Positions 1,321 to 46,018 of a stretch of DNA of 64,000 bases are shown here, one piece after another (position 1 is the stretch's first letter; the number at the start of each line of letters is the position of its first letter). This DNA is from an uncultured Bradyrhizobium sp. (GTDB taxonomy: Bacteria; Pseudomonadota; Alphaproteobacteria; Rhizobiales; Xanthobacteraceae): the NCBI RefSeq assembly GCF_936928535.1, contig NZ_CAKZHY010000170.1, forward strand, positions 1 to 64,000, given 5' to 3'. The notes under the pieces were generated by a model. The model had not been told where the DNA came from. It did no database searches and was given only the letters and a program-made list of their open reading frames with translations. The translations under genes and the position numbers were made by a program.

Positions 1321-3384
1321 TTGAACCAGAGGACGTCACGCGGCGCTTACGGGCGTGAGACCGGGATCATCGATCTCGGCCACGAGCCGCCGCTGTCCGT
1401 CGATGGTTCCGAAGCCGCCGTCATCGATCGCCGCAGAGTCTCGGTGCAATGGTTCAGCGGCACAATTCTGACCGGACTGTGCGGCGCAGCCCTGATCGGC
1501 GGCGCCGTTTTCGCATCTCTCGACGGCGAAATGACCTTCGCCAAGGTTCCTGAGCGGGTCGAAGGCGCGCTGCGCGGCGCATTCGGCGCTGGCGATCGCA
1601 CCGCGACGCTGCACAAGAGCGATCGCCTGCCGCCGCCCAGCGACTCGACCGCCTCGCGCAACATCGTCCGCGTCTCGACGGTCGCCCGCGTCGGCAACCG
1701 CGACGTGATGCGGGTGCGCCCCTTCATCCGGATCGCCGGCAATCTGTCGATGACGACGAGCGATCTGTCGGCGAAGATTCCGCCGTTCAACGCGCAGCGC
1801 ATGCTCACCGACGTCGGCTCCGATCCGAAGACCGCGACCGACGATCCGAACAATCCTGAAGCCGTCGAGCCCGACGCCGAGGTCTCCTTCGTCACCAAGG
1901 ACCTCTCGCCGGTGCTGCCGAAGGCCAAGATTTCCGCCGTGGTGGCGCTCGACGACATCCTGATGCGGGTGCGCGATGCCGCCAATTGGCGCGGCAATGG
2001 CGGGGTGCGCTATGCCTCGCTCGCCAACGCGACCGCCGACGTCTCCGGCGCGGCCGGCGCATCCGACATGAAGATGGCCTACGCCACCGAAGCCTCGTCG
2101 TCCGATCCCTATGCCGGTTTCGAAACGCGCGTGGTGCCGGAGAACGTGACGCTGCTGCCGAAGACCAAGGAGCAGATCACCGGCGGCAATCCCAACGGCG
2201 AACGCGTCCATGTCGTCAAGAAGGGCGACAGCATCGGCTCGGTGCTGCGCGATCTCGGCGCCAAGGCCGAGGAGATCAAGGCGATCGCTGCAACGCTCGG
2301 CCCCCGCGGGCGCGACGGCGGCCTGAAGGAAGGCGAAAAGCTTCGCATCCTGATGGCGCCCGCAAGCCCCGGCGCAAGGCTGCAGCCCTACCGCGTCGTC
2401 GTCGCCAACGACACCGTGGTCGAGGCGATCGCGGCCCTGTCGGATCTCGGCAAATACGTCGCGGTCGACGTCTCCAGCATGAACACCGTCGCCGACGCCA
2501 CGGCCAACGCCAACAGCGAAGACGATGACGACGATGACGGCAGCGGCGTGCGGCTCTACCAGAGCATCTACGAGACGGCGATGCGCAACAAAGTGCCGAT
2601 GCCGGTCATCGACGACATGATCAAGATCTACTCCTACGACGTCGACTTCCAGCGCAAGGTCGCGCCGGGCGACTCGTTCGACGTGTTCTACGCCGGCGAA
2701 GACGAGGGCTCGAACGCGGCCGACAAGAGCGAAGTGCTGTTCGCCTCGCTCACCGTCGGCGGCGAAACCAAGAAATATTATCGCTATCAGAGCCCCGATG
2801 ACGGTGTCGTCGACTACTACGACGAGACCGGCAAGAGCGCGAAGAAGTTTCTGGTCCGCAAGCCCGTCAACACCGCCATCATGCGCTCCGGCTTCGGCGG
2901 CCGCCGCCATCCGATCCTCGGCTACGTGAAGATGCACACCGGCGTCGACTGGGCCACCGCCTACGGCACGCCGATCTTCGCCGCCGGCAACGGCGTGATC
3001 GAAAAGGCCCAGCTCGAAGGCGGCTACGGCAAATACGTCCGCATCAAGCACAACAACGGCTACGAGACCGCCTACGGCCACATGTCGGCCTTCGCCAAGG
3101 GCATGGAGCCCGGCAAGAAGGTGCGGCAGGGCCAGGTCATCGGCTTCGTCGGCTCGACCGGCCAGTCGACTGGCCCGCACGTGCACTACGAAATCCTCGT
3201 CAACGGCCGCTTCGTCGACCCGATGCGCGTGAAACTGCCGCGCGGCCGTTCGCTCGAGGGACCGATGCTCGCCGGCTTCGAGAAGGAACGCGACCGCCTC
3301 GACGCCATGATGAGCGGCCGGGCCGGCGCGATTGCGCGGATGTCGGATGCGACGGGTGGACCGTTGCAGGTCAGCAACCGCTGA
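1321..3384 (+). CDS. M23 family metallopeptidase (membrane-anchored murein endopeptidase)
   Basis: Predicted inner-membrane-anchored peptidoglycan endopeptidase acting in the periplasm. A cytoplasmic tail of about 43 residues is followed by a membrane segment (about 44-67), a long linker with a LysM/OapA-like part (HVVKKGDSIGSVLRDLG) and an acidic run (EDDDDDDG). The C-terminal M23 domain carries zinc-site motifs HTGVD (H539, D543) and HVH (H620, H622). LytM factors of this type cleave stem-peptide cross-links during growth and division. I chose the TTG at 1321 because GGGGGA lies just upstream; an ATG at 1249 in the same frame (711 aa) has no clear ribosome site. The gene is convergent with clpB. 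Product is about 687 aa. Confidence 0.9.
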   Translation: MNQRTSRGAYGRETGIIDLGHEPPLSVDGSEAAVIDRRRVSVQWFSGTILTGLCGAALIGGAVFASLDGEMTFAKVPERVEGALRGAFGAGDRTATLHKSDRLPPPSDSTASRNIVRVSTVARVGNRDVMRVRPFIRIAGNLSMTTSDLSAKIPPFNAQRMLTDVGSDPKTATDDPNNPEAVEPDAEVSFVTKDLSPVLPKAKISAVVALDDILMRVRDAANWRGNGGVRYASLANATADVSGAAGASDMKMAYATEASSSDPYAGFETRVVPENVTLLPKTKEQITGGNPNGERVHVVKKGDSIGSVLRDLGAKAEEIKAIAATLGPRGRDGGLKEGEKLRILMAPASPGARLQPYRVVVANDTVVEAIAALSDLGKYVAVDVSSMNTVADATANANSEDDDDDDGSGVRLYQSIYETAMRNKVPMPVIDDMIKIYSYDVDFQRKVAPGDSFDVFYAGEDEGSNAADKSEVLFASLTVGGETKKYYRYQSPDDGVVDYYDETGKSAKKFLVRKPVNTAIMRSGFGGRRHPILGYVKMHTGVDWATAYGTPIFAAGNGVIEKAQLEGGYGKYVRIKHNNGYETAYGHMSAFAKGMEPGKKVRQGQVIGFVGSTGQSTGPHVHYEILVNGRFVDPMRVKLPRGRSLEGPMLAGFEKERDRLDAMMSGRAGAIARMSDATGGPLQVSNR

Positions 3385-3410
3385 TTTTTCGGATTAGACG
3401 TCAAAAGAAA

Positions 3411-3440
3411 CGCCCCGGAGAGGACAATCTCTCCGGGGCG
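3411..3440. terminator. Bidirectional rho-independent terminator between M23 gene and clpB
   Basis: A perfect 12-base G+C-rich stem (3411-3422 with 3429-3440) and a 6-base loop lie between the convergent stop codons. T-rich sequence follows on the right, and an A-rich stretch (AAAAGAAA) precedes on the left, giving U tracts on both transcripts. Confidence 0.85.
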
Positions 3441-3468
3441 CTTTCATTTTGGGATGAACGCCGTTCGC

Positions 3469-6108
<2,640 letters not shown>

Positions 6109-6189
6109 GGTCTTTTCTGTCCCTCGGCCTGCCCTCGGGGCCCTCTAAGGCACCCCAAACGGCATCTTCATTGGGTTTCCGCCTGATGC

Positions 6190-6205
6190 GTTGACGTTCC
6201 TCAAC
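6190..6205. promoter_or_regulatory. FixK/FNR-like palindrome (candidate operator)
   Basis: GTTGA-N6-TCAAC is a perfect palindrome matching the FNR/FixK2 consensus TTGA-N6-TCAA. It lies between divergent clpB (82 bases before its ATG) and the MOSC gene (about 147 bases before its ATG). About one chance match to the eight fixed bases is expected in 64 kb, so this is only a candidate for oxygen-responsive control. Confidence 0.25.
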
Positions 6206-6351
6206 CAGCAGGCGGTCGTTATCAGCCGACGCTGGCGCCGACCTGACCCAGATGTGGGAAGCATGGCTTCGGATCGGAAGAGGCGCGTTCACAATTTCGT
6301 GCGCGGATCAGCCGGCTTGGCGGGTGCAGGTCGAATCCCCTAAGTAGGCCC

Positions 6352-7155
6352 ATGAACTTCAGCTCAGAGCAGGTCGGCCAGACCGCCGAAATCACCGGCC
6401 TTTACCGCTACCCGATCAAGGGCCTGACGCCGGAGGCCCTGCTCCGGGTGCCCTTGCGGTCAGGCCAGACCCTGCCCGCCGACCGCCGCTACGCCATCGA
6501 GAACGGACCCAGCGGGTTCGACCCGGAGGCGCCCGAGTGGAAGCCGAAAATCCAGTTCCTGATGCTGGCGCGCAATGAGCGGCTGGCCTCCCTCGACAGC
6601 CGTTTCGAGGACACGACCAATCGCCTGACCATCCGCAAGGACGGCCAGATCGTCGCCAGCGGCGATCTCGAGACGGCAGCAGGGCGCGCCGCGATCGAGA
6701 ACTACTTCACCGAGAACTTCCAGGTGGAGCTGAAGGGCCCGCCAAAGGTGCTGTCCGGCCGGGACCACAGCTTCTCCGATGTCGCGCGCAAGGTCGTGTC
6801 CATCATCAATCTCAACAGCGTCCACGCCATCGAGACCATGCTCGGCGGCGTTACCGTCAATCCGCTGCGCTTTCGCGCCAATCTCTACGTCAAGGGCTGG
6901 CCGGCCTGGTCCGAGCTCGACCTTGTCGGCCAGACGCTGGCGATCGGGCAGGCCCGGCTGAAGGTGGTCAAGCGCATCGTCCGCTGTCCGGCCACCAATG
7001 TGGACCCGGTCACGGCGCAGCGCGATCTCGAGATACCGCCGACGCTCTCGCGCCATCTCGGCCACATGGATTGCGGCATCTATGCCGAGGTGATCGCCGA
7101 CGGCGAGATCGGCGTGGGTGATACGATTGCGGTGGAGCAGCCGAGACTGGTTTGA
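6352..7155 (+). CDS. MOSC domain-containing protein
   Basis: 267 aa. The N-terminal half (GLYRYPIKGLTPEAL, about 16-30) is the MOSC N-terminal beta-barrel domain. The C-terminal half is the MOSC domain, with the conserved cysteine region RCPATNVDP and the closing CGIYAEVIADGEIGVGD. MOSC proteins relate to the C-terminus of molybdenum-cofactor sulfurase and to mARC-type reductases and are thought to carry sulfur or molybdenum cofactor. No 2Fe-2S ferredoxin domain is attached, so this is the short form. The substrate is unknown. It is divergent from clpB. Confidence 0.85.
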   Translation: MNFSSEQVGQTAEITGLYRYPIKGLTPEALLRVPLRSGQTLPADRRYAIENGPSGFDPEAPEWKPKIQFLMLARNERLASLDSRFEDTTNRLTIRKDGQIVASGDLETAAGRAAIENYFTENFQVELKGPPKVLSGRDHSFSDVARKVVSIINLNSVHAIETMLGGVTVNPLRFRANLYVKGWPAWSELDLVGQTLAIGQARLKVVKRIVRCPATNVDPVTAQRDLEIPPTLSRHLGHMDCGIYAEVIADGEIGVGDTIAVEQPRLV

Positions 7156-7178
7156 GCCCACGCCGGCTCAACACACTC

Positions 7179-7296
7179 CGTCATTGCGAGCGCAGCGAAG
7201 CAATCCAGGAATGCATCCGCGGAGACAGTCTGGATTGCTTCGTCGCACCAGCGCAAAATTGCCTAGCAATTTTGTCGCGGGCTCCTCGCAATGACG
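7179..7296. repeat. Interspersed palindromic repeat, family A (complete copy)
   Basis: A composite palindrome bounded by CGTCATTGCGAG and its inverse CTCGCAATGACG. Inside is an 11-base inverted pair (GAAGCAATCCA at 7197-7207 with TGGATTGCTTC at 7231-7241) and a second one (AAAATTGC / GCAATTTT, 7255-7273). A related half-element ends at 23899. It lies between convergent genes. The type resembles intergenic palindromes common in Bradyrhizobium genomes. Confidence 0.8.
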
Positions 7297-7307
7297 AGGC
7301 AGTGACT

Positions 7308-7949
7308 TCAATTCGGCATCACATACGCATAGATCCGGCCGCGCGAGATCGGGGCTTCGCGAACGCGGTTGCCGTTGTTGCCGGAGATCATGATCGGATT
7401 GCCCTGCGCATCGATGCCGGTGATGATGCCGACATGACCGCCGCGACCGCCGCGCGACATCACGGCGATGGCGCCGACCTGCGGGCCGGAGACGCGCGTG
7501 CCGTAGTGCGCGAACGAATTCGCCATATCCGAGCCGGTGCCGTGATGTCCGGTTTTTTCAAGCACCATGTTCATGAAACGCGCGCACCACAGGCTGCCGC
7601 GCCCCGTGGGGTTGCCGCCGAGATAGCGCCGCGCCTCGGACACGAGACCCGATCCGCCACCGAAACCACCGCTCATGCCCGCGCCGGCATTCGTGTTCGG
7701 ATCATAGCTGGCCTGCGTGTTGGCAAATTGGCTCGCCTGCAACTGCTCCGCGCTGCGCTCGAAGCGCGAGATGCGGGCATGATGGCGATAGCGATGATGT
7801 CGGGCGTGATGCACGTAAGCGTGCCGTTCAGCGCTGTGACGATGATGTGGCCGCGCTGAGGCCGGAGAAACGAACGCAGCAACCGCTGCAAGAACAATCG
7901 CCAGCGCGACAACACAACGCGACAGGCGAGACGCAAACAACTCAACCAT
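7308..7949 (-). CDS. Secreted CHAP/NlpC-like (TIGR02594-type) cell-wall amidase
   Basis: 213 aa. A hydrophobic signal peptide (about 8-32, ending near ASA) is followed by a His-rich low-complexity stretch with repeated HHR/RHH. The C-terminal cysteine-peptidase-like domain starts with SEARRYLGGNPTGRGSLWCARFMN. Cys in LWCARF, His in GGHVGII and the polar ISGNNGNRV form the expected Cys-His-polar triad. GAGGA lies just before the ATG. Related proteins are predicted peptidoglycan amidases or endopeptidases in the periplasm. The His-rich linker could bind metal; that is inference. Confidence 0.75.
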   Translation of the reverse strand: MVELFASRLSRCVVALAIVLAAVAAFVSPASARPHHRHSAERHAYVHHARHHRYRHHARISRFERSAEQLQASQFANTQASYDPNTNAGAGMSGGFGGGSGLVSEARRYLGGNPTGRGSLWCARFMNMVLEKTGHHGTGSDMANSFAHYGTRVSGPQVGAIAVMSRGGRGGHVGIITGIDAQGNPIMISGNNGNRVREAPISRGRIYAYVMPN

Positions 7950-9116: not shown

Positions 9117-9779
9117 TCACTTCCCCTGCCCGCGGCTGAGCAGAAACACGCCCTGCTCGCCGAACAGATTCCACACCCACCATGGCAGGCGCAGCCGTAA
9201 GGGACGGCCGTAGAGATCGAGCGCTTCGGCGCGCTCCATCTTGACGTGGATCTCGTCGCAGAGCTCGACGAAGTCCTTGATGGTGCAGAAATGGATGTTG
9301 GCGGTGTCGTACCAACTTGCCGGCAGATTCTCCGTACGCGGCATGTGACCGCCGACCAGGAGCTGCAGCCGCATCCGCCAGAATCCGAAATTGGGGAACG
9401 AGACGATGGCGCGGCGGCCGATGCGCAGGAGATTTTCCAGCACGACCTTTGGCTGGCGCGTCGCCTGCAGCGTCTGCGACAGGATCACGTAGTCGAAGGC
9501 ATCGTCTGGATAATTCACGAGGTCGGTATCGGCATCGCCCTGCACCACAGCGAGGCCCTTGGCGACGCAGCGATTGACGCCCTCGCGCGACAGCTCGATG
9601 CCGCGGCCGTCGATGCCGCGGGTCTCCAGCAGCTGAAGCAAATCGCCCTCGCCGCAGCCGACGTCGAGCACCTTCGAGCCCGGCTTGACCATCTCGGCGA
9701 CCAGCAGATGGTCGGCGCGAAACGGGCCGGATTGCTCTGAGGCAAGGCCGTTGAGCGGCAGCACTTCCTGTACAGACAT
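9117..9779 (-). CDS. metW: Methionine biosynthesis protein MetW
   Basis: 220-aa SAM-dependent methyltransferase-fold protein. Motif I is VLDVGCGEGDLLQLLE; the family signature SFPNFGFWRMRLQLL and the C-terminal region around NLFGEQGVFLLSR are present. MetW works with MetX in homoserine acetylation in bacteria that pair the two genes. It follows metX with 2 bases between, so the two are co-transcribed and translationally linked under the SAM-II riboswitch. Confidence 0.96.
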   Translation of the reverse strand: MSVQEVLPLNGLASEQSGPFRADHLLVAEMVKPGSKVLDVGCGEGDLLQLLETRGIDGRGIELSREGVNRCVAKGLAVVQGDADTDLVNYPDDAFDYVILSQTLQATRQPKVVLENLLRIGRRAIVSFPNFGFWRMRLQLLVGGHMPRTENLPASWYDTANIHFCTIKDFVELCDEIHVKMERAEALDLYGRPLRLRLPWWVWNLFGEQGVFLLSRGQGK

Positions 9780-9781
9780 CG

Positions 9782-10999
9782 CTAGCCGTCCTTAGCCGTG
9801 AGCCCGCGCGCCTTGCCTGCCGACTGCAGGAAGGCGCGGGAGATGTCGAAGAACTCGGGCACGTCGAGCAGGAAGGCGTCATGGCCGCGATCGGTCTCGA
9901 TCTCGGCGAAAGACACCCGCGCGCTCGACGCGTTCAGCGCGTGCACCAGCGCGCGCGATTCCGAGGTGGGAAATAGCCAGTCGCTGGTGAAGGAGACCAC
10001 GCAGAACCGCGTCTCGATCCCGGCGAACGCTTTCGCCAGCACGCCGTCGTGGTCACCGGCGATGTCGAAATAGTCCATCGCGCGGGTCAGATAGAGATAG
10101 GAGTTGGCGTCGAAACGCTCGACGAAGGACGAGCCCTGGTAGCGCAGATAGGACTCGACCTGGAAGTCGGCGTCGAACGAGAAGGTCGGCAGCTCGCGGT
10201 CCTGCATGCGACGACCGAACTTGCGATGCAGCGCCGCGTCCGACAGGTAAGTGATGTGCGCGGCCATGCGTGCGACCGCGAGGCCGCGATGCGGATGGAT
10301 GCCCTGATCGGCATAGGCGCCGTTGTGCCAGTCGGGATCGGCCATCACGGCCTGGCGGCCGAGCTCGTGGAAGGCGATGTTCTGCGCCGAGTGCCGCGTC
10401 GCGCAGGCGATCGCGAGCGCGGAGTAGACGCGCGCAGGGTACGCCGCGGTCCATTGCAGCACCTGCATGCCGCCCATCGAGCCGCCGACGACGGCGAACA
10501 GCGTGTCGATGCCGAGGCGGTCGATCAGCATCGCCTGCGCGCGCACCATGTCGGGGATGGTGATGACGGGGAAATCCAGCCCCCACACCTTGCCGGTGGC
10601 GGGATTGATCGAGGCAGGCCCGGTCGAGCCCATGCAGCCGCCGATCACGTTGGAGCAGATGATGAAGTACCTGGTGGGGTCGAGCGGCCGGCCGGGACCG
10701 ACCAGCGTCTCCCACCAGCCGGGCTTGCCGGTGACGGGGTGCACATTGGCGACGTGCTGATCGCCGGTCAGCGCATGGCAGATCAGCACCGCGTTGGAGC
10801 GATCGGCATTGAGCTCGCCATAGGTCTTGTAGGCGATCTGGAACGGGGTGAGATCGACGCCGCAATCGAGCCGCAACGGCTGATCGGCGCCGAACAGCGC
10901 GACCTCCGAGCTCGGATGATCGACCTCATGCGACCGATCGTCGGCACTGATCGCAGGACTTGGGATCGTAGGACTTGGGACAGACTTGACGCCAACCAT
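9782..10999 (-). CDS. metX: Homoserine O-acetyltransferase MetX
   Basis: 405 aa. Transfers acetyl from acetyl-CoA to homoserine in the first committed step of methionine synthesis. Alpha/beta hydrolase fold with nucleophile S174 in GGSMGGMQ and catalytic His in [18 protein letters not shown] and GGCMGSTGP are MetX-family blocks. The first ~30 residues are a variable extension, so a later start is possible. A SAM-II riboswitch and an intrinsic terminator precede it, so high SAM should cut expression of metX and metW. Confidence 0.97.
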
Positions 11000-11091: not shown

Positions 11092-11109
11092 ATCGGAAGC
11101 GTCCCCGGC

Positions 11110-11166
11110 CTGTTTAGCGAGTTTTTTAACGTGGCTGCAAGCCGGCCGGCTCAAATGACCACGGAA
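11110..11166 (-). promoter_or_regulatory. SAM-II riboswitch (metA motif) controlling metX-metW
   Basis: On the reverse strand the aptamer has the P1 pair CGTGG...CCACG, the conserved TCATTTGAGCCGGCCGGCTT core with GCAGCCACG, and the A-rich strand TTAAAAAACTCGCTAAACAG that forms the H-type pseudoknot. These are the known SAM-II hallmarks. SAM-II is typical of alphaproteobacterial met genes. It lies about 110 bases upstream of metX in the right orientation, with a terminator between. Confidence 0.93.
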
Positions 11167-11365
11167 CAGGCAAAAACCTACTGGCTTGGGCCGATTTCGT
11201 CAAGTCGCGGTCCGGATTAGCCAAAATCGTCTCTCACCCGGCAGCCTTGCGGGGCGTCATTTCTCTTTGCTTTCGCCGTCCCGACTGCCTAATCAGGACG
11301 TTGACCGCAGCGGATCCGGCCTGCCCGTTCCGCATTGGAATGCCTCTCAACAGCTCCAGTCAGAT

Positions 11366-12214
11366 ATGTCCCAACGTCCGCCCGCGCCACCATCGCTCCA
11401 GGAATTGCGCAAGGAGATCGACGCGATCGACGAGGCCATGCATCGCCTCCTGATGCAGCGCGGCGACATCATCGACCGCCTGATCCAGGTGAAGCAGACC
11501 CAGGAGGTCGGCTCGGCGTTCCGGCCCGCACGCGAGGCCTCAATGATGCGCGAGATCGTGCAACGCCATCGCGGCATCCTGCCGCTCGACACGGTCGAGA
11601 GCATCTGGCGCGTCATCATCTCGACCTTCACCTATGTCCAGGCGCCGTTCTCCGTGCATGCCGACATCTCGGTGAGCGAGCCGGCGATGCGCGATTCCGT
11701 GCGCTTCCATTTCGGCTTCACGGTGCCTTACGTCGCGCATTTCAGCGCGCAGGCGGCGGTGGAGGCGGTCGCGAAATCCAAGGGTGATCTCGCGTTGGTC
11801 TCGGCGACCTCGAGCCGCACACCATGGTGGCTGGAGCTGGAAGCGAACGGCGCACCGAAGATCATCGCGCGCATGCCCTTCGTCGAGCGGGCCGATCATC
11901 CGGCGTCACTGCCGGTGTTCGCGATCTCGCGCGTCGCCGACAGCGCCGTGGTGACCGAGGTCGAGACCTTCAGCGTGCGCGTCTCCGGGTGGAACGCCGA
12001 GGTCGCGCGCGCGCTGTCGCCGCTCGCCGACATCGTGGCGGTGCCCGATACCGCCTTCGACGGCGCCGCGCTGCTGGTCTCGGTCACGTCAGACACCAGC
12101 ATCGACAAGATCAGGGCTGCCCTGATCGAGGCAGGGGCCTCGGTGCGCTCCACGGCCCTCGTCGGCAGCCACGCAACGCGCTATACGGTGCCCCCGACCG
12201 GGCCAAAATCGTAG
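11366..12214 (+). CDS. Chorismate mutase (AroQ-type) with C-terminal extension
   Basis: 282 aa from the ATG at 11366; the frame is open to 11186 without family similarity. Residues about 10-95 are an all-helical AroQ-class mutase: LRKEIDAIDEAMHRLLMQR, then RPAREASMMREI. It converts chorismate to prephenate. The remaining ~185 residues (from about FHFGFTVPYVAHF) look like a degenerate prephenate-dehydratase/periplasmic-binding-like fold and end in an ACT-like stretch. Its role is unclear. hisC starts 35 bases later and tyrA follows, making a tyrosine/phenylalanine branch operon. Confidence 0.85.
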   Translation: MSQRPPAPPSLQELRKEIDAIDEAMHRLLMQRGDIIDRLIQVKQTQEVGSAFRPAREASMMREIVQRHRGILPLDTVESIWRVIISTFTYVQAPFSVHADISVSEPAMRDSVRFHFGFTVPYVAHFSAQAAVEAVAKSKGDLALVSATSSRTPWWLELEANGAPKIIARMPFVERADHPASLPVFAISRVADSAVVTEVETFSVRVSGWNAEVARALSPLADIVAVPDTAFDGAALLVSVTSDTSIDKIRAALIEAGASVRSTALVGSHATRYTVPPTGPKS

Positions 12215-43254: not shown

Positions 43255-45024
43255 ATGCTGGATCGCACGAAGGACATCGCCGTCTGCGCGCGGGACTGGC
43301 TCGACGAGTTCGAGCGCGCGCTTGGCCAGCCTGATCGCGCCGCGCTGGACCGCCTCTTCCTCGCTGACTGCTTTTGGCGCGATGTGCTAGCGCTGAGCTG
43401 GAACCTGCAAACGCTCGCGAGCCGCGATTCAGTCGTACAGGCACTGAGTGTGCTCGCGCCCAAGGCGGCGCCGGCGACCTTCGAGATCGCGCCGAACCGT
43501 GCAGCGCCACGCTGGGTGACACGCGCAGGCACCAACAATATCGAGGCCATCTTCAGATTCGAGACCGCGCTCGGCCGCGGCAGCGGCATCGTGCGCCTTG
43601 TTCCCGATCCTGCCGATGGCGATCGCCTGAAGGCGTGGACACTGCTGACCGCGCTCGAGGAGCTCAAAGGCTTCGAGGAGCAGCTCGGCATCTCACGACC
43701 GCGCGGGCAGACCTATTCGCGCGACTTCCGTGGTCCGAACTGGCTCGATCTGCGCAACGCCTCGCGCGACTATGCCGATCGCGACCCCGTCGTGCTGGTG
43801 GTTGGCGGGGGCCAGGCTGGGCTTGCGATCGCGGCGCGGCTGAAGCAGTTGCAGGTCGACACGCTGATCGTCGATCGCGGCGCGCGGATCGGCGACGTCT
43901 GGCGGAAGCGCTACCACGCGCTGACCCTGCACAATCAGGTGCAGGTCAATCACATGCCCTACATGCCGTTTCCCCCGAACTGGCCGACCTACATCCCCAA
44001 GGACAAGCTCGCCAACTGGTTCGAGGCTTACGTCGACGCGATGGAGCTGAATTTATGGACCGGCACCGAGTTCGGGGGCGGCGACTATGACGAGACCGGG
44101 GGACGCTGGACGGTGACGCTGCGCCGCGCCGACGGCAGCGAGCGCACCATGCATCCGCGCCACGTCATCATGGCGACCGGCGTGAGCGGCATCGCCAACA
44201 TTCCCGAGATTCCGACGCTCGATCGTTTCAAGGGCACGCTGCTGCATTCCAGCCGTTACGAGGACGGCGAAACCTGGGCGGGCAAGCGCGCCATCGTCAT
44301 CGGCACCGGCAACAGCGGCCACGACATCGCGCAGGATCTTTATTCCAGCGGCGCGGAGGTGACGCTGGTGCAGCGGTCGCCGACGCTGGTCACGAATATC
44401 GAGCCGTCGGCGCAGCTGGCGTATGCGACCTACAACGAGGGCACGCTCGAGGACAACGATCTGATCGCGGCGTCAATGCCGACGCCGCTGGCGAAAAAGA
44501 CCCATGTGATGTTGACCGAGCAGTCGAAAGAGCTCGACAAGGAGCTGCTCGACGGCCTTCGCGGCGTCGGTTTCAAGCTCGATTTCGGCGAGGCCGGCAC
44601 CGGCTGGCAATTCAAATACCTCACCCGCGGCGGCGGATATTATTTCAACGTCGGCTGCTCCAACCTGATCGTCGAAGGCGCGATCAAGCTGAAGCAGTTC
44701 GACGACATCGAGAGCTTCACGACCGATGGCGCGCGGATGAAGGACGGCACGACCGTCACGGCCGATCTGATCGTCCTCTCCACCGGCTACAAGCCGCAGG
44801 AATATCTGGTGCGAAAGCTGTTCGGCGATGTCATCGCCGACCGGGTCGGCCCGATCTGGGGCTTTGGCGATGGCTTTGAGCTCCGCAACATGTATGCGCG
44901 CACGAAGCAGCCCGGCCTGTGGTTCATCGCCGGCAGTCTCGCGCAGTGCCGGATCAACTCGAAATTCCTCGCGCTCCAGATCAAGGCGATCGAGACAGGG
45001 ATGTTGGGGCGCAAGGCGGAATAA
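43255..45024 (+). CDS. Flavin-dependent monooxygenase (FMO/YUCCA type) with NTF2-like N-terminus
   Basis: 589 aa, strong ribosome site AAGGGAGGT 5 bases before the ATG at 43255. The first ~150 residues look like an NTF2/SnoaL-like domain. Then FAD site VVGGGQAGLAIAARL (about 181-195), FMO fingerprint FKGTLLHSSRY (about 325-335, fitting FxGxxxHxxxY) and NADPH site VIGTGNSGHDIAQDL (about 348-362). This set indicates class B flavin monooxygenase using NADPH and O2 on a small nucleophilic substrate. It lies 16 bases before the PAL-like lyase gene. Confidence 0.9.
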   Translation: MLDRTKDIAVCARDWLDEFERALGQPDRAALDRLFLADCFWRDVLALSWNLQTLASRDSVVQALSVLAPKAAPATFEIAPNRAAPRWVTRAGTNNIEAIFRFETALGRGSGIVRLVPDPADGDRLKAWTLLTALEELKGFEEQLGISRPRGQTYSRDFRGPNWLDLRNASRDYADRDPVVLVVGGGQAGLAIAARLKQLQVDTLIVDRGARIGDVWRKRYHALTLHNQVQVNHMPYMPFPPNWPTYIPKDKLANWFEAYVDAMELNLWTGTEFGGGDYDETGGRWTVTLRRADGSERTMHPRHVIMATGVSGIANIPEIPTLDRFKGTLLHSSRYEDGETWAGKRAIVIGTGNSGHDIAQDLYSSGAEVTLVQRSPTLVTNIEPSAQLAYATYNEGTLEDNDLIAASMPTPLAKKTHVMLTEQSKELDKELLDGLRGVGFKLDFGEAGTGWQFKYLTRGGGYYFNVGCSNLIVEGAIKLKQFDDIESFTTDGARMKDGTTVTADLIVLSTGYKPQEYLVRKLFGDVIADRVGPIWGFGDGFELRNMYARTKQPGLWFIAGSLAQCRINSKFLALQIKAIETGMLGRKAE

Positions 45025-45040
45025 CCAGAGGACAGAGCCA

Positions 45041-46018
45041 ATGTCAGCCATTCTCGGCACAGGCGAGCATCGCTACCGCGTCGTCGAAAATTTCGCGAAA
45101 CTTCCCGATGGCTGGCAGCTCAGCGACGTCGCCTCGGTCGCCGTCGACAGCAAGGACCGCGTCTATGTCTTCAACCGCGGCGAACATCCGATGGTGGTGC
45201 TTGATCGCGAGGGCAATTTCCTGCGCAGCTTTGGCGAAGGCCTGTTCTCGCGCGCGCATGGCCTGCATATCGATGCCGACGACAACCTCTACTGCACCGA
45301 CGACGGCGACCATACCGTGCGCAAATGCACCACCGACGGCAAGGTGCTGCTGACAATCGGCATCCCCAAAAAACCGGCGCCCTTCATGAGTGGCGAGCCG
45401 TTCCATCGCTGCACCCACACTGCGCTGTCGCCGAAGGGCGAAATCTACGTCTCAGACGGCTATGGCAATGCACGCGTGCACAAATACACGCCCGACGGCA
45501 AGCTGATCAAAAGCTGGGGCGAGCCGGGCACCGATCCCGGCCAGTTCAATATCGTGCACAATATTGCGACCGATGCCGATGGCTGGGTCTATGTCGCCGA
45601 CCGCGAGAACCACCGCATTCAGGTGTTCAACGGCGAGGGCAAATACGAGACGCAGTGGAACAATCTGCATCGACCCTGTGCGCTGTGCTGTTGCGGCGGA
45701 GCCAAGAGCCCGACCTTCGTGATCGGCGAGCTCGGCCCCGGCCTCGAGGTCAACCGCAATGTGCCCAATCTTGGCCCTCGGCTGTCGATCGTCGATGCCA
45801 AGGGAAAGCGCATCGCTCGGCTCGGCGGCGAGGAAGGCCCCGGCATTTCCAGCGGAAAGTTCTTGGCGCCGCATGGCCTCGCACTGGATTCCAGGGGCGA
45901 CATCTATGTCGGCGAAGTCGGCGTCACCAATTGGAAGGCCAGTTTTGGAGAGCGGGAAATGCCGGCGGAAGTGCGCGCGACGCGGTGCTTGCAGAAGCTG
46001 GAGCTGGTGCTGGAGTAA
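45041..46018 (+). CDS. NHL-repeat protein, peptidyl-hydroxyglycine amidating lyase (PAL)-like
   Basis: 325 aa, ribosome site AGAGGA before ATG 45041. Beta-propeller of NHL repeats (HGLHID, HTALSPKGEIYVSDG, HNIATDADGWVYVAD, PHGLALDSRGDIYVG). It keeps every residue known from mammalian PAL: three zinc histidines H73, H173 and H278, tyrosine Y141 in SDGY and arginine R46 in NRGEH. PAL cleaves alpha-hydroxyglycine amides to amide plus glyoxylate. A cysteine cluster (CALCCC, C213-C218) is unusual. There is no signal peptide, so it is cytoplasmic. It lies just after the monooxygenase gene. Confidence 0.85.
   Translation: MSAILGTGEHRYRVVENFAKLPDGWQLSDVASVAVDSKDRVYVFNRGEHPMVVLDREGNFLRSFGEGLFSRAHGLHIDADDNLYCTDDGDHTVRKCTTDGKVLLTIGIPKKPAPFMSGEPFHRCTHTALSPKGEIYVSDGYGNARVHKYTPDGKLIKSWGEPGTDPGQFNIVHNIATDADGWVYVADRENHRIQVFNGEGKYETQWNNLHRPCALCCCGGAKSPTFVIGELGPGLEVNRNVPNLGPRLSIVDAKGKRIARLGGEEGPGISSGKFLAPHGLALDSRGDIYVGEVGVTNWKASFGEREMPAEVRATRCLQKLELVLE

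Follow-up and report, generated by a model that had tools for sequence, protein, structure and literature searches.

Where the gene of a flavin monooxygenase (FMO) stands next to that of a lyase resembling PAL, the enzyme best known for the last step of peptide-hormone amidation in animals, the question arises whether the two encode consecutive steps of one pathway, i.e. hydroxylation of a carbon next to nitrogen and splitting of the product, or act independently. Such a locus lies on contig NZ_CAKZHY010000170.1 of an uncultured Bradyrhizobium sp. (assembly GCF_936928535.1; 7.5 Mb over 173 contigs), of which a stretch of 64,000 nucleotides, hereafter the window, was analysed. It comprises the genes for a DUF2855 protein, the FMO and the lyase, in this order on the forward strand, with gaps of 55 and 16 bases (Table 1). 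An earlier note made from the sequence alone had proposed the last two as an N-dealkylating pair, and the open reading frames, common strand and 16-base gap that it gave for them were confirmed.

The proposal as a whole was well supported for the lyase, which has the PAL catalytic set, rat PAL as its first-ranked structural match, an intact reading frame and a low ratio of non-synonymous to synonymous substitution rates (dN/dS), but weakly for the pair, against which the chemistry of the FMO, the linkage of the genes and their losses all speak. That we are dealing with a genuine zinc lyase of the PAL family is very likely, whereas the FMO is probably not its obligate partner. We put at about even the chance that the locus is a three-gene catabolic or detoxification unit, in which a reductase-like DUF2855 protein and a type II FMO for a separable oxidation would accompany the lyase.

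Fold and catalytic residues of the lyase

Above the Pfam cut-off, the lyase matched NHL repeats and, in part, the gluconolactonase/SMP-30 family SGL (PF08450; E 1.1e-8), next to weaker propeller matches. A sequence search of the PDB returned PAL together with other NHL domains and with designed propellers; the match to PAL is collinear over residues 51–201. The structure model (pLDDT 79.8, pTM 0.84; 41 sequences of at least 86 % identity) is a six-bladed NHL beta-propeller with PAL among its closest folds: Foldseek against the PDB ranked rat PAL (3fvz) first (E 8e-17), and a second structural comparison aligned 275 residues of 3fvz with a Z score of 30.3, a root-mean-square deviation (rmsd) of 2.9 and 30 % identity. 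This Z score is shared with the NHL domains of TRIM and Thin, while the identity to PAL was the highest among the 50 matches listed.

The five residues that had been picked out as catalytic, i.e. R46, H73, Y141, H173 and H278, indeed stand at these positions and match rat PAL, and R188 joins them as a sixth that had been missed. In residue-level as well as joint alignments, R46, H73, Y141, H173, R188 and H278 correspond to rat PAL R533, H585, Y654, H690, R706 and H786 (numbered in the joint alignment as chain number plus 491). We take the three histidines of rat PAL to be zinc ligands, and its tyrosine and two arginines to be catalytic, presumably with the same roles for their counterparts in the lyase. 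From homology and fold, we infer that the six residues share one pocket.

Conservation agrees with this assignment. In an alignment of 16 family members, the 38 invariant columns include five of the six catalytic positions (hypergeometric P 9e-5, assuming equal conservation across residue types), and the sixth is almost invariant. In a set of 27 bacterial sequences, with identities as low as 34 % and including six near-copies from strains without the FMO, R46, H73, H173 and H278 were conserved throughout. R188 was retained in 25, two Mesorhizobium sequences having Asp instead, and Y141 in 23, a group of paralogues having His at its position; all six residues occurred together in 21. The idea that the lyase is a mere repeat protein without an active site was rejected, as the presence of six conserved PAL residues speaks against it. 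The paralogues in question (L220, L224, L225 and L061, positions 11097–11933) keep the three zinc-type histidines intact and may use this metal site for another reaction.

On inspection of the sequence, no signal peptide was seen in the lyase, as had been claimed, and its substrate is most likely small and cytoplasmic. In the mechanism that we propose, H73, H173 and H278 would bind zinc, Y141 would act as the base and R46 and R188 would hold the substrate, so that a small compound of the alpha-hydroxy-N-acyl or N-carbamoyl type would be split at its C–N bond, releasing an amide together with either an oxo-acid or an aldehyde. The lyase probably splits a small carbinolamide.

Table 1. Position of the three genes in the window and of the residues and motifs discussed in the text
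Feature	Position	Strand	Length or basis
DUF2855 protein P0003	42114..43199	+	361 aa
Type II class B flavin monooxygenase P0001 (FMO)	43255..45024	+	589 aa
FMO motif GGGQAG, residues 184–189	43804..43821	+	sequence motif
FMO H226-N227 (JsFMO His216-Asp217)	43930..43935	+	alignment
FMO motif GTGNSG, residues 350–355	44302..44319	+	sequence motif
FMO Y462 (JsFMO catalytic Tyr458)	44638..44640	+	alignment
Intergenic gap FMO/lyase	45025..45040	+	16 bases
PAL-family NHL-propeller lyase P0002, predicted cytoplasmic	45041..46018	+	325 aa
Lyase R46 (rat PAL R533)	45176..45178	+	FNRGEH vs FHRGDH
Lyase H73 (rat PAL H585)	45257..45259	+	LFSRAHGL vs LFYLPHGL
Lyase Y141 (rat PAL Y654)	45461..45463	+	VSDGY vs VSDGY
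Lyase H173 (rat PAL H690)	45557..45559	+	FNIVHNIA vs FSVPHSLA
Lyase R188 (rat PAL R706)	45602..45604	+	VADRENHRIQ vs VADRENGRIQ
Lyase H278 (rat PAL H786)	45872..45874	+	FLAPHGLA vs FDMPHDIV

Type and expected chemistry of the flavin monooxygenase

The closest solved relative of the FMO is JsFMO of Janthinobacterium svalbardensis (8ACS), matched by phmmer over residues 8–582 with an E value of 9.5e-121, followed by the next match at 3.4e-20. Pfam assigned the domains Pyr_redox_3 and FMO-like. In the alignment with JsFMO, the N-terminal extension falls on the SnoaL-like domain, and no SnoaL model was among the 25 of 31 Pfam matches listed. The motifs GGGQAG and GTGNSG are presumably those for binding of FAD and NAD(P)H, respectively. 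With homology over the full length, extension included, and both nucleotide motifs, the FMO shows the features of a type II FMO with N-terminal extension. No class B flavin monooxygenase is known to hydroxylate a C–H next to an amide nitrogen, and this is the chief chemical argument against the scheme of the earlier note.

In the accessible part of the JsFMO report, the N-terminal domain is described as SnoaL-like, and JsFMO and the type II group are credited with Baeyer-Villiger oxidation of ketones and with sulfoxidation; hydroxylation next to nitrogen is not reported for the group in that part (PMC10028610). It also states that Tyr458 is conserved in every type II FMO with the extension investigated so far, and Asp217 is catalytic according to the abstract and possibly of marginal role according to the section on the active site (PMC10028610). 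In our set, from which sequences with a stop inside the matched stretch were omitted, the equivalents of JsFMO H216, R363, Y458 and R571 were conserved in all 94 genus-type sequences and all 29 other homologues, and the position of Asp217, N227 in the FMO of the window, was Asn in all 94 genus-type sequences and in eight of the 29 others. The FMO would perform a Baeyer-Villiger or heteroatom oxygenation on the same compound class as the lyase, separable from the lyase step and not obligatory for making the substrate of the lyase.

Co-occurrence and separate losses within Bradyrhizobium

How closely the two genes are tied was assessed in 146 genomes of the genus, with cut-offs of E <= 1e-40 for the lyase and E <= 1e-150 for the FMO. 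Among the matches listed, and leaving out as paralogues four lyase rows of 36–37 % and FMO rows of 47–51 % identity, the lyase was found in 132 genomes and the FMO in 131, i.e. both in 125, the lyase only in seven, the FMO only in six and neither in eight. For the 131 FMO genes, a lyase followed downstream within 200 bp in 100 cases, at 201–500 bp in two, at 0.5–10 kb in 20 and beyond 10 kb in one, while in eight no lyase stood on the same contig and strand. The wider gap holds a histidine kinase, a response regulator and two DUF3280 proteins in one genome (G015, locus L188) and a histidine kinase in another (G102, locus L193; one further small gene there is unscanned). That the intervening genes extend the pathway was rejected, given that signalling genes and DUF3280 proteins were found in the two genomes scanned.

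Each gene has also been lost without the other. Five of the seven genomes with the lyase only are clear cases (G103 stops at a contig edge and in G117 the lyase is broken), as are five of the six with the FMO only (in G033, all that was found of the FMO is a fragment where the contig stops); in these latter five, i.e. G025, G045, G048, G095 and G131, the FMO is retained and the lyase gone. On the lyase tree, from which L104 and L142 (stop in the lyase) were dropped, exact duplicates being merged and L080 and L085, near a contig end, marked as unknown, the label for absence of the FMO changes seven times. Since one of these changes is a clade of second copies and the remnants at the other loci differ, six losses of the FMO at the main locus are obtained by parsimony, represented by L060, L096, L107, L119, L121 and L178, all with a whole lyase. 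What remains of the FMO are residues 1–48 and 498–588 in L119/L180, 528–586 in L096/L181, 504–586 in L107 and 565–584 in L178; nothing was found at the locus in L121/L177 and L060. The DUF2855 gene is whole in five of the six lineages, L178 being the exception. In Bradyrhizobium sp. WSM3983 (L180, positions 4995–5410; L119, positions 9552–9967), an internal deletion fuses FMO residue 48 to residue 498, between a whole DUF2855 gene and a whole lyase gene.

All six catalytic residues are present in all six lyases without an FMO. Pairwise dN/dS of the lyase ranged from 0.054 to 0.214 in six pairs of an FMO-less and an FMO-bearing strain, which also include FMO-bearing branches, and from 0.055 to 0.137 in eight FMO-positive control pairs. 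All values are far below 1, and the lyase has therefore been under selection. Adjacency alone was rejected as proof of pairing, because the genus counts and the loss cases show the genes to be separable. Considering the chemistry known for class B enzymes together with the pattern of FMO loss, it is unlikely that the FMO serves as the hydroxylase for the lyase, and a looser functional link between the two inside the genus is likely.

An even looser arrangement, in which three unrelated genes have merely stayed in one transcription unit by history, would agree with the finding that each can go without the others and with the 20 of 131 cases of a gap of 0.5–10 kb, occupied by signalling genes in the two genomes scanned. 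We give it little credence, given that in 102 of the 131 cases the FMO gene is still no more than 500 bp away from a lyase and that the two genes co-occur above the expectation for independent loss.

Several Bradyrhizobium genomes carry a second lyase copy of 83–88 % identity, once on plasmid CP092842.1. The second-copy loci (L125, L126, L137, L055–L057, L065 and L197) lie in a conserved island together with genes for an RraA-type aldolase, for LysR regulators and for 5-oxoprolinase-like proteins.

Relatives outside the genus

The earlier note had named conservation of the pair in other genomes as a check, and this conservation, evident inside the genus, was not found beyond it. At E <= 1e-60, the lyase was found in 15 of 297 genomes of the order, six of them outside the genus, and in 11 of 398 genomes of the phylum, two of them outside the genus. 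No FMO was found within the 16 kb fetched around these eight outside-genus lyase loci; seven of the eight genomes harbour an FMO homologue elsewhere, unlinked, the most similar one (70 %) lying 3.4 Mb away in G555. Conversely, the FMO was found at E <= 1e-60 in 32 of 299 genomes, 26 of them outside the genus, and none of the 24 outside-genus FMO loci fetched had a lyase or DUF2855 gene within 1.5 kb. A PAL-like gene was absent from 24 of these 26 genomes (25 searched at E <= 1e-25) and present but unlinked in two, i.e. G555 and, on another contig, G657. DUF2855 was detected in five of 25 genomes tested, unlinked to any lyase or FMO present in the same genome.

The surroundings of the FMO relatives vary. 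Three homologues on plasmids, of 46–50 % identity, lie near genes for an SDR, an amidohydrolase and a carboxymuconolactone decarboxylase, a setting that looks catabolic; a 53 % homologue in G168 adjoins an SDR gene and a 54 % homologue in G681 an OmpW-family gene.

For the relatives of the lyase, the genes near it were inspected in 20 distinct neighbourhoods, partly scanned and without a background control. Within three genes, these contained a GMC oxidoreductase (L053 and L225), a luciferase-like monooxygenase (L200, Rhodococcus), an extradiol-dioxygenase-like protein (L054) or a Rieske protein with a VanB-type reductase and a VOC protein (L203, Sinorhizobium fredii). A dehydrogenase or reductase only was found in L048, L049, L058/L059, the second-copy island (with an SDR), L198/L199, L220 and L223, and neither kind in L047, L050, L051/L052, L214, L215, L221, L222 and L224. 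An oxidoreductase theme beside related lyases is suggestive.

Two of these settings deserve description. On a plasmid of S. fredii NXT3 (L203, positions 1424–6960), a PAL-family gene annotated as hypothetical directly follows the VOC, VanB-type reductase and Rieske genes; the upstream flank holds two amidohydrolases and the downstream flank an ABC transporter, making this a candidate cluster for oxidative degradation. On two Mesorhizobium plasmids (L198, positions 5656–7900; L199, positions 5659–7897), the PAL-family gene, with Asp at the position of R188, is divergent from a 2-hydroxyacid dehydrogenase gene and adjoins genes for ectoine uptake and breakdown.

Such dehydrogenases bear on a further explanation, i.e. 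that the lyase is of the ureidoglycolate type, releasing urea or an amide and glyoxylate in nitrogen salvage, with a chemistry unrelated to the FMO. Ureidoglycolate is N-carbamoyl alpha-hydroxyglycine and has the same type of bond as the substrates of PAL, and a 2-hydroxyacid dehydrogenase, a possible enzyme for the reduction of glyoxylate, adjoins the relatives in L053 and on the two Mesorhizobium plasmids. These Mesorhizobium relatives, however, lack R188, and no purine or ureide gene name occurs among the annotated neighbours in the second-copy island, Mesorhizobium and S. fredii, where no dedicated search was made; we consider this explanation very unlikely.

It is tempting to speculate, though the idea is improbable as it stands, that PAL-fold zinc lyases are the general second half of oxidative C–N (carbinolamide) cleavage in bacteria, with the oxidising half swapped between unrelated enzymes and animal PAL as a specialized branch of an older catabolic family. 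The swapped halves would then be a type II FMO in Bradyrhizobium, a luciferase-like monooxygenase in Rhodococcus, Rieske-type components in Sinorhizobium and a GMC oxidoreductase elsewhere.

The DUF2855 protein and the transcription unit

The first gene of the locus encodes a protein matching Pfam DUF2855 with an E value of 5.8e-109. Its AlphaFold2 model, of modest confidence (pLDDT 71.2, pTM 0.69), was matched over the whole length by PA1648 and double-bond reductases as the top Foldseek results (best E 2.9e-13), and also resembles ene-reductases and quinone reductases; against the ene-reductase 8ov8, 295 residues were aligned with a Z score of 15.8 and an rmsd of 5.2. A profile search against PDB sequences returned nothing significant. 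The model points to a medium-chain dehydrogenase/reductase (MDR) fold of the ene-reductase or quinone reductase kind. By inspection, SSASSKTA occupies the expected place of the nucleotide-binding loop, which in such reductases is usually Gly-rich. A literature search, with most subscription papers outside its reach, found no paper on DUF2855. That the protein handles the product of the pair, as had been suggested, is possible given the modelled fold.

A reductase at this place would also suit a Baeyer-Villiger cassette, in which the DUF2855 protein would reduce an enone or interconvert ketone and alcohol, the FMO would form an ester or lactone, and the propeller would be a zinc esterase or lactonase. 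The ene-reductase-like MDR fold of the model agrees with this, as do the Baeyer-Villiger activity described for JsFMO in the accessible part of its report (PMC10028610), the SDR, amidohydrolase and carboxymuconolactone decarboxylase genes near the plasmid FMO homologues, the SDR gene beside the homologue in G168, and the presence of gluconolactonases among the structural matches of the lyase model. We nevertheless judge the cassette unlikely: the conserved residues of the lyase are the PAL set, the nucleotide loop of the DUF2855 protein is atypical, the 54 % homologue in G681 has an OmpW-family gene beside it, and the separate losses speak against any strict three-step cassette.

A promoter and terminator scan, uninformative in itself, found no promoter-like or same-strand terminator-like site between the three genes, which fits a single transcription unit without showing one. 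Of the 80 loci retained from named records as closest to that of the window, 79 belong to Bradyrhizobium and one is labelled Frankia. The latter (L076, JAUEPE010000021.1, labelled Frankia sp. RB7) has all three genes of the locus, its lyase being 92 % identical to that of the window, and is probably a mislabelled or contaminated assembly.

Weighing a separable oxidation against a coupled pair

Several observations count against a three-gene unit with separable steps as we read it. FMO and lyase co-occur strongly within the genus (Fisher P 3.5e-6, a value that the relatedness of the genomes inflates), which favours a closer tie than our reading assigns. If only well-supported branches of the lyase tree are considered, no more than three changes of the no-FMO label are forced, a number that includes the second-copy clade. 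Of the six FMO-less pairs, three, with dN/dS of 0.146, 0.154 and 0.214, exceed all eight controls, and some relaxation of selection on the lyase after loss of the FMO is therefore possible. In one genome (G117, locus L182), loss of the FMO is accompanied by loss of part of the lyase, as expected for a coupled pair. Further, the paralogues of about 36 % identity do without Y141, and in only five of the 20 neighbourhoods does an oxygenase or oxidase gene lie no more than three genes from the lyase relative, seven having a dehydrogenase or reductase only and eight neither.

Some of these points are what a two-step N-dealkylation would predict, in which a small amide would be hydroxylated by the FMO at the carbon adjoining its nitrogen and the carbinolamide then cleaved by the lyase, i.e. 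the adjacency and co-occurrence in the genus, the possibly relaxed selection in three of six pairs and the decay of both genes in G117. Bacteria also offer a precedent for a hydroxylase working with a lyase, namely MgdH and MgdL, but in the accessible part of that report MgdH is a 2-oxoglutarate/Fe enzyme and MgdL is not homologous to PAL (PMC12508155). The chemistry given for type II FMOs in the accessible part of the JsFMO report is Baeyer-Villiger or heteroatom oxidation (PMC10028610), six lineages have lost the FMO and kept a whole lyase, and outside the genus no linkage of the two genes was found. Therefore, N-dealkylation by this pair seems quite unlikely to us, and the unit with a separable oxidation remains our preferred reading.

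The lyase is a clean test case for the role of the PAL fold in bacteria. As a lyase with the whole PAL catalytic set occurs in 132 of 146 sampled genomes of a genus from soil and root nodules, the natural non-peptide chemistry of the fold becomes testable, and strains without the FMO, such as B. agreste CNPSo 4010 and B. hipponense aSej3, offer a ready comparison for which step each gene serves. If it is true that the lyase acts on small carbinolamides, it may become a tool for amide-forming or N-dealkylating biocatalysis.

Comparison with known systems

That bacteria possess PAL relatives is already known: the family is named PAL-like by NCBI, and a bacterial PAL with amidation activity has been reported. 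In NCBI-derived annotation, the PAL-family name is attached to the 83 % identical copy on a Bradyrhizobium plasmid and to two Mesorhizobium relatives. The peptidylamidoglycolate lyase of an Exiguobacterium sp., as described in the accessible part of its report, is active in C-terminal amidation of peptides and was engineered as PAL14 (PMC11685837). It is bacterial like the lyase of the window, to which it is presumably homologous. A literature search, which most subscription papers lay beyond, found no natural small-molecule substrate for a bacterial PAL relative.

Rat PAL (3FVZ/3FW0) shares with the lyase of the window the six-bladed NHL propeller and all six catalytic residues, at about 30 % identity and with the lyase known here from its sequence. 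In contrast to rat PAL, the lyase is free-standing, with no visible signal peptide, no fused copper hydroxylase and A276 in place of M784. The adjoining oxygenase is a flavoprotein, whereas the PAM-type system uses the copper hydroxylase PHM; the PHM domain PF03712 was found in none of 40 genomes of the genus, but also in none of 14 control genomes.

JsFMO matches the FMO over its full length, with H216, R363, Y458 and R571 kept and Asp217 replaced by Asn. The closest functional analogue of the arrangement as a whole is the pair MgdH/MgdL of Vreelandella boliviensis, a hydroxylase and a lyase that, according to the accessible part of the report, demethylate methylguanidine (PMC12508155). There, too, the gene of an oxygenase adjoins that of a hemiaminal-splitting lyase. 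The oxygenase, however, is a 2-oxoglutarate/Fe enzyme instead of a flavin enzyme, and MgdL, without homology to PAL according to its authors, relies on other catalytic residues, i.e. D49 and R51 (PMC12508155).

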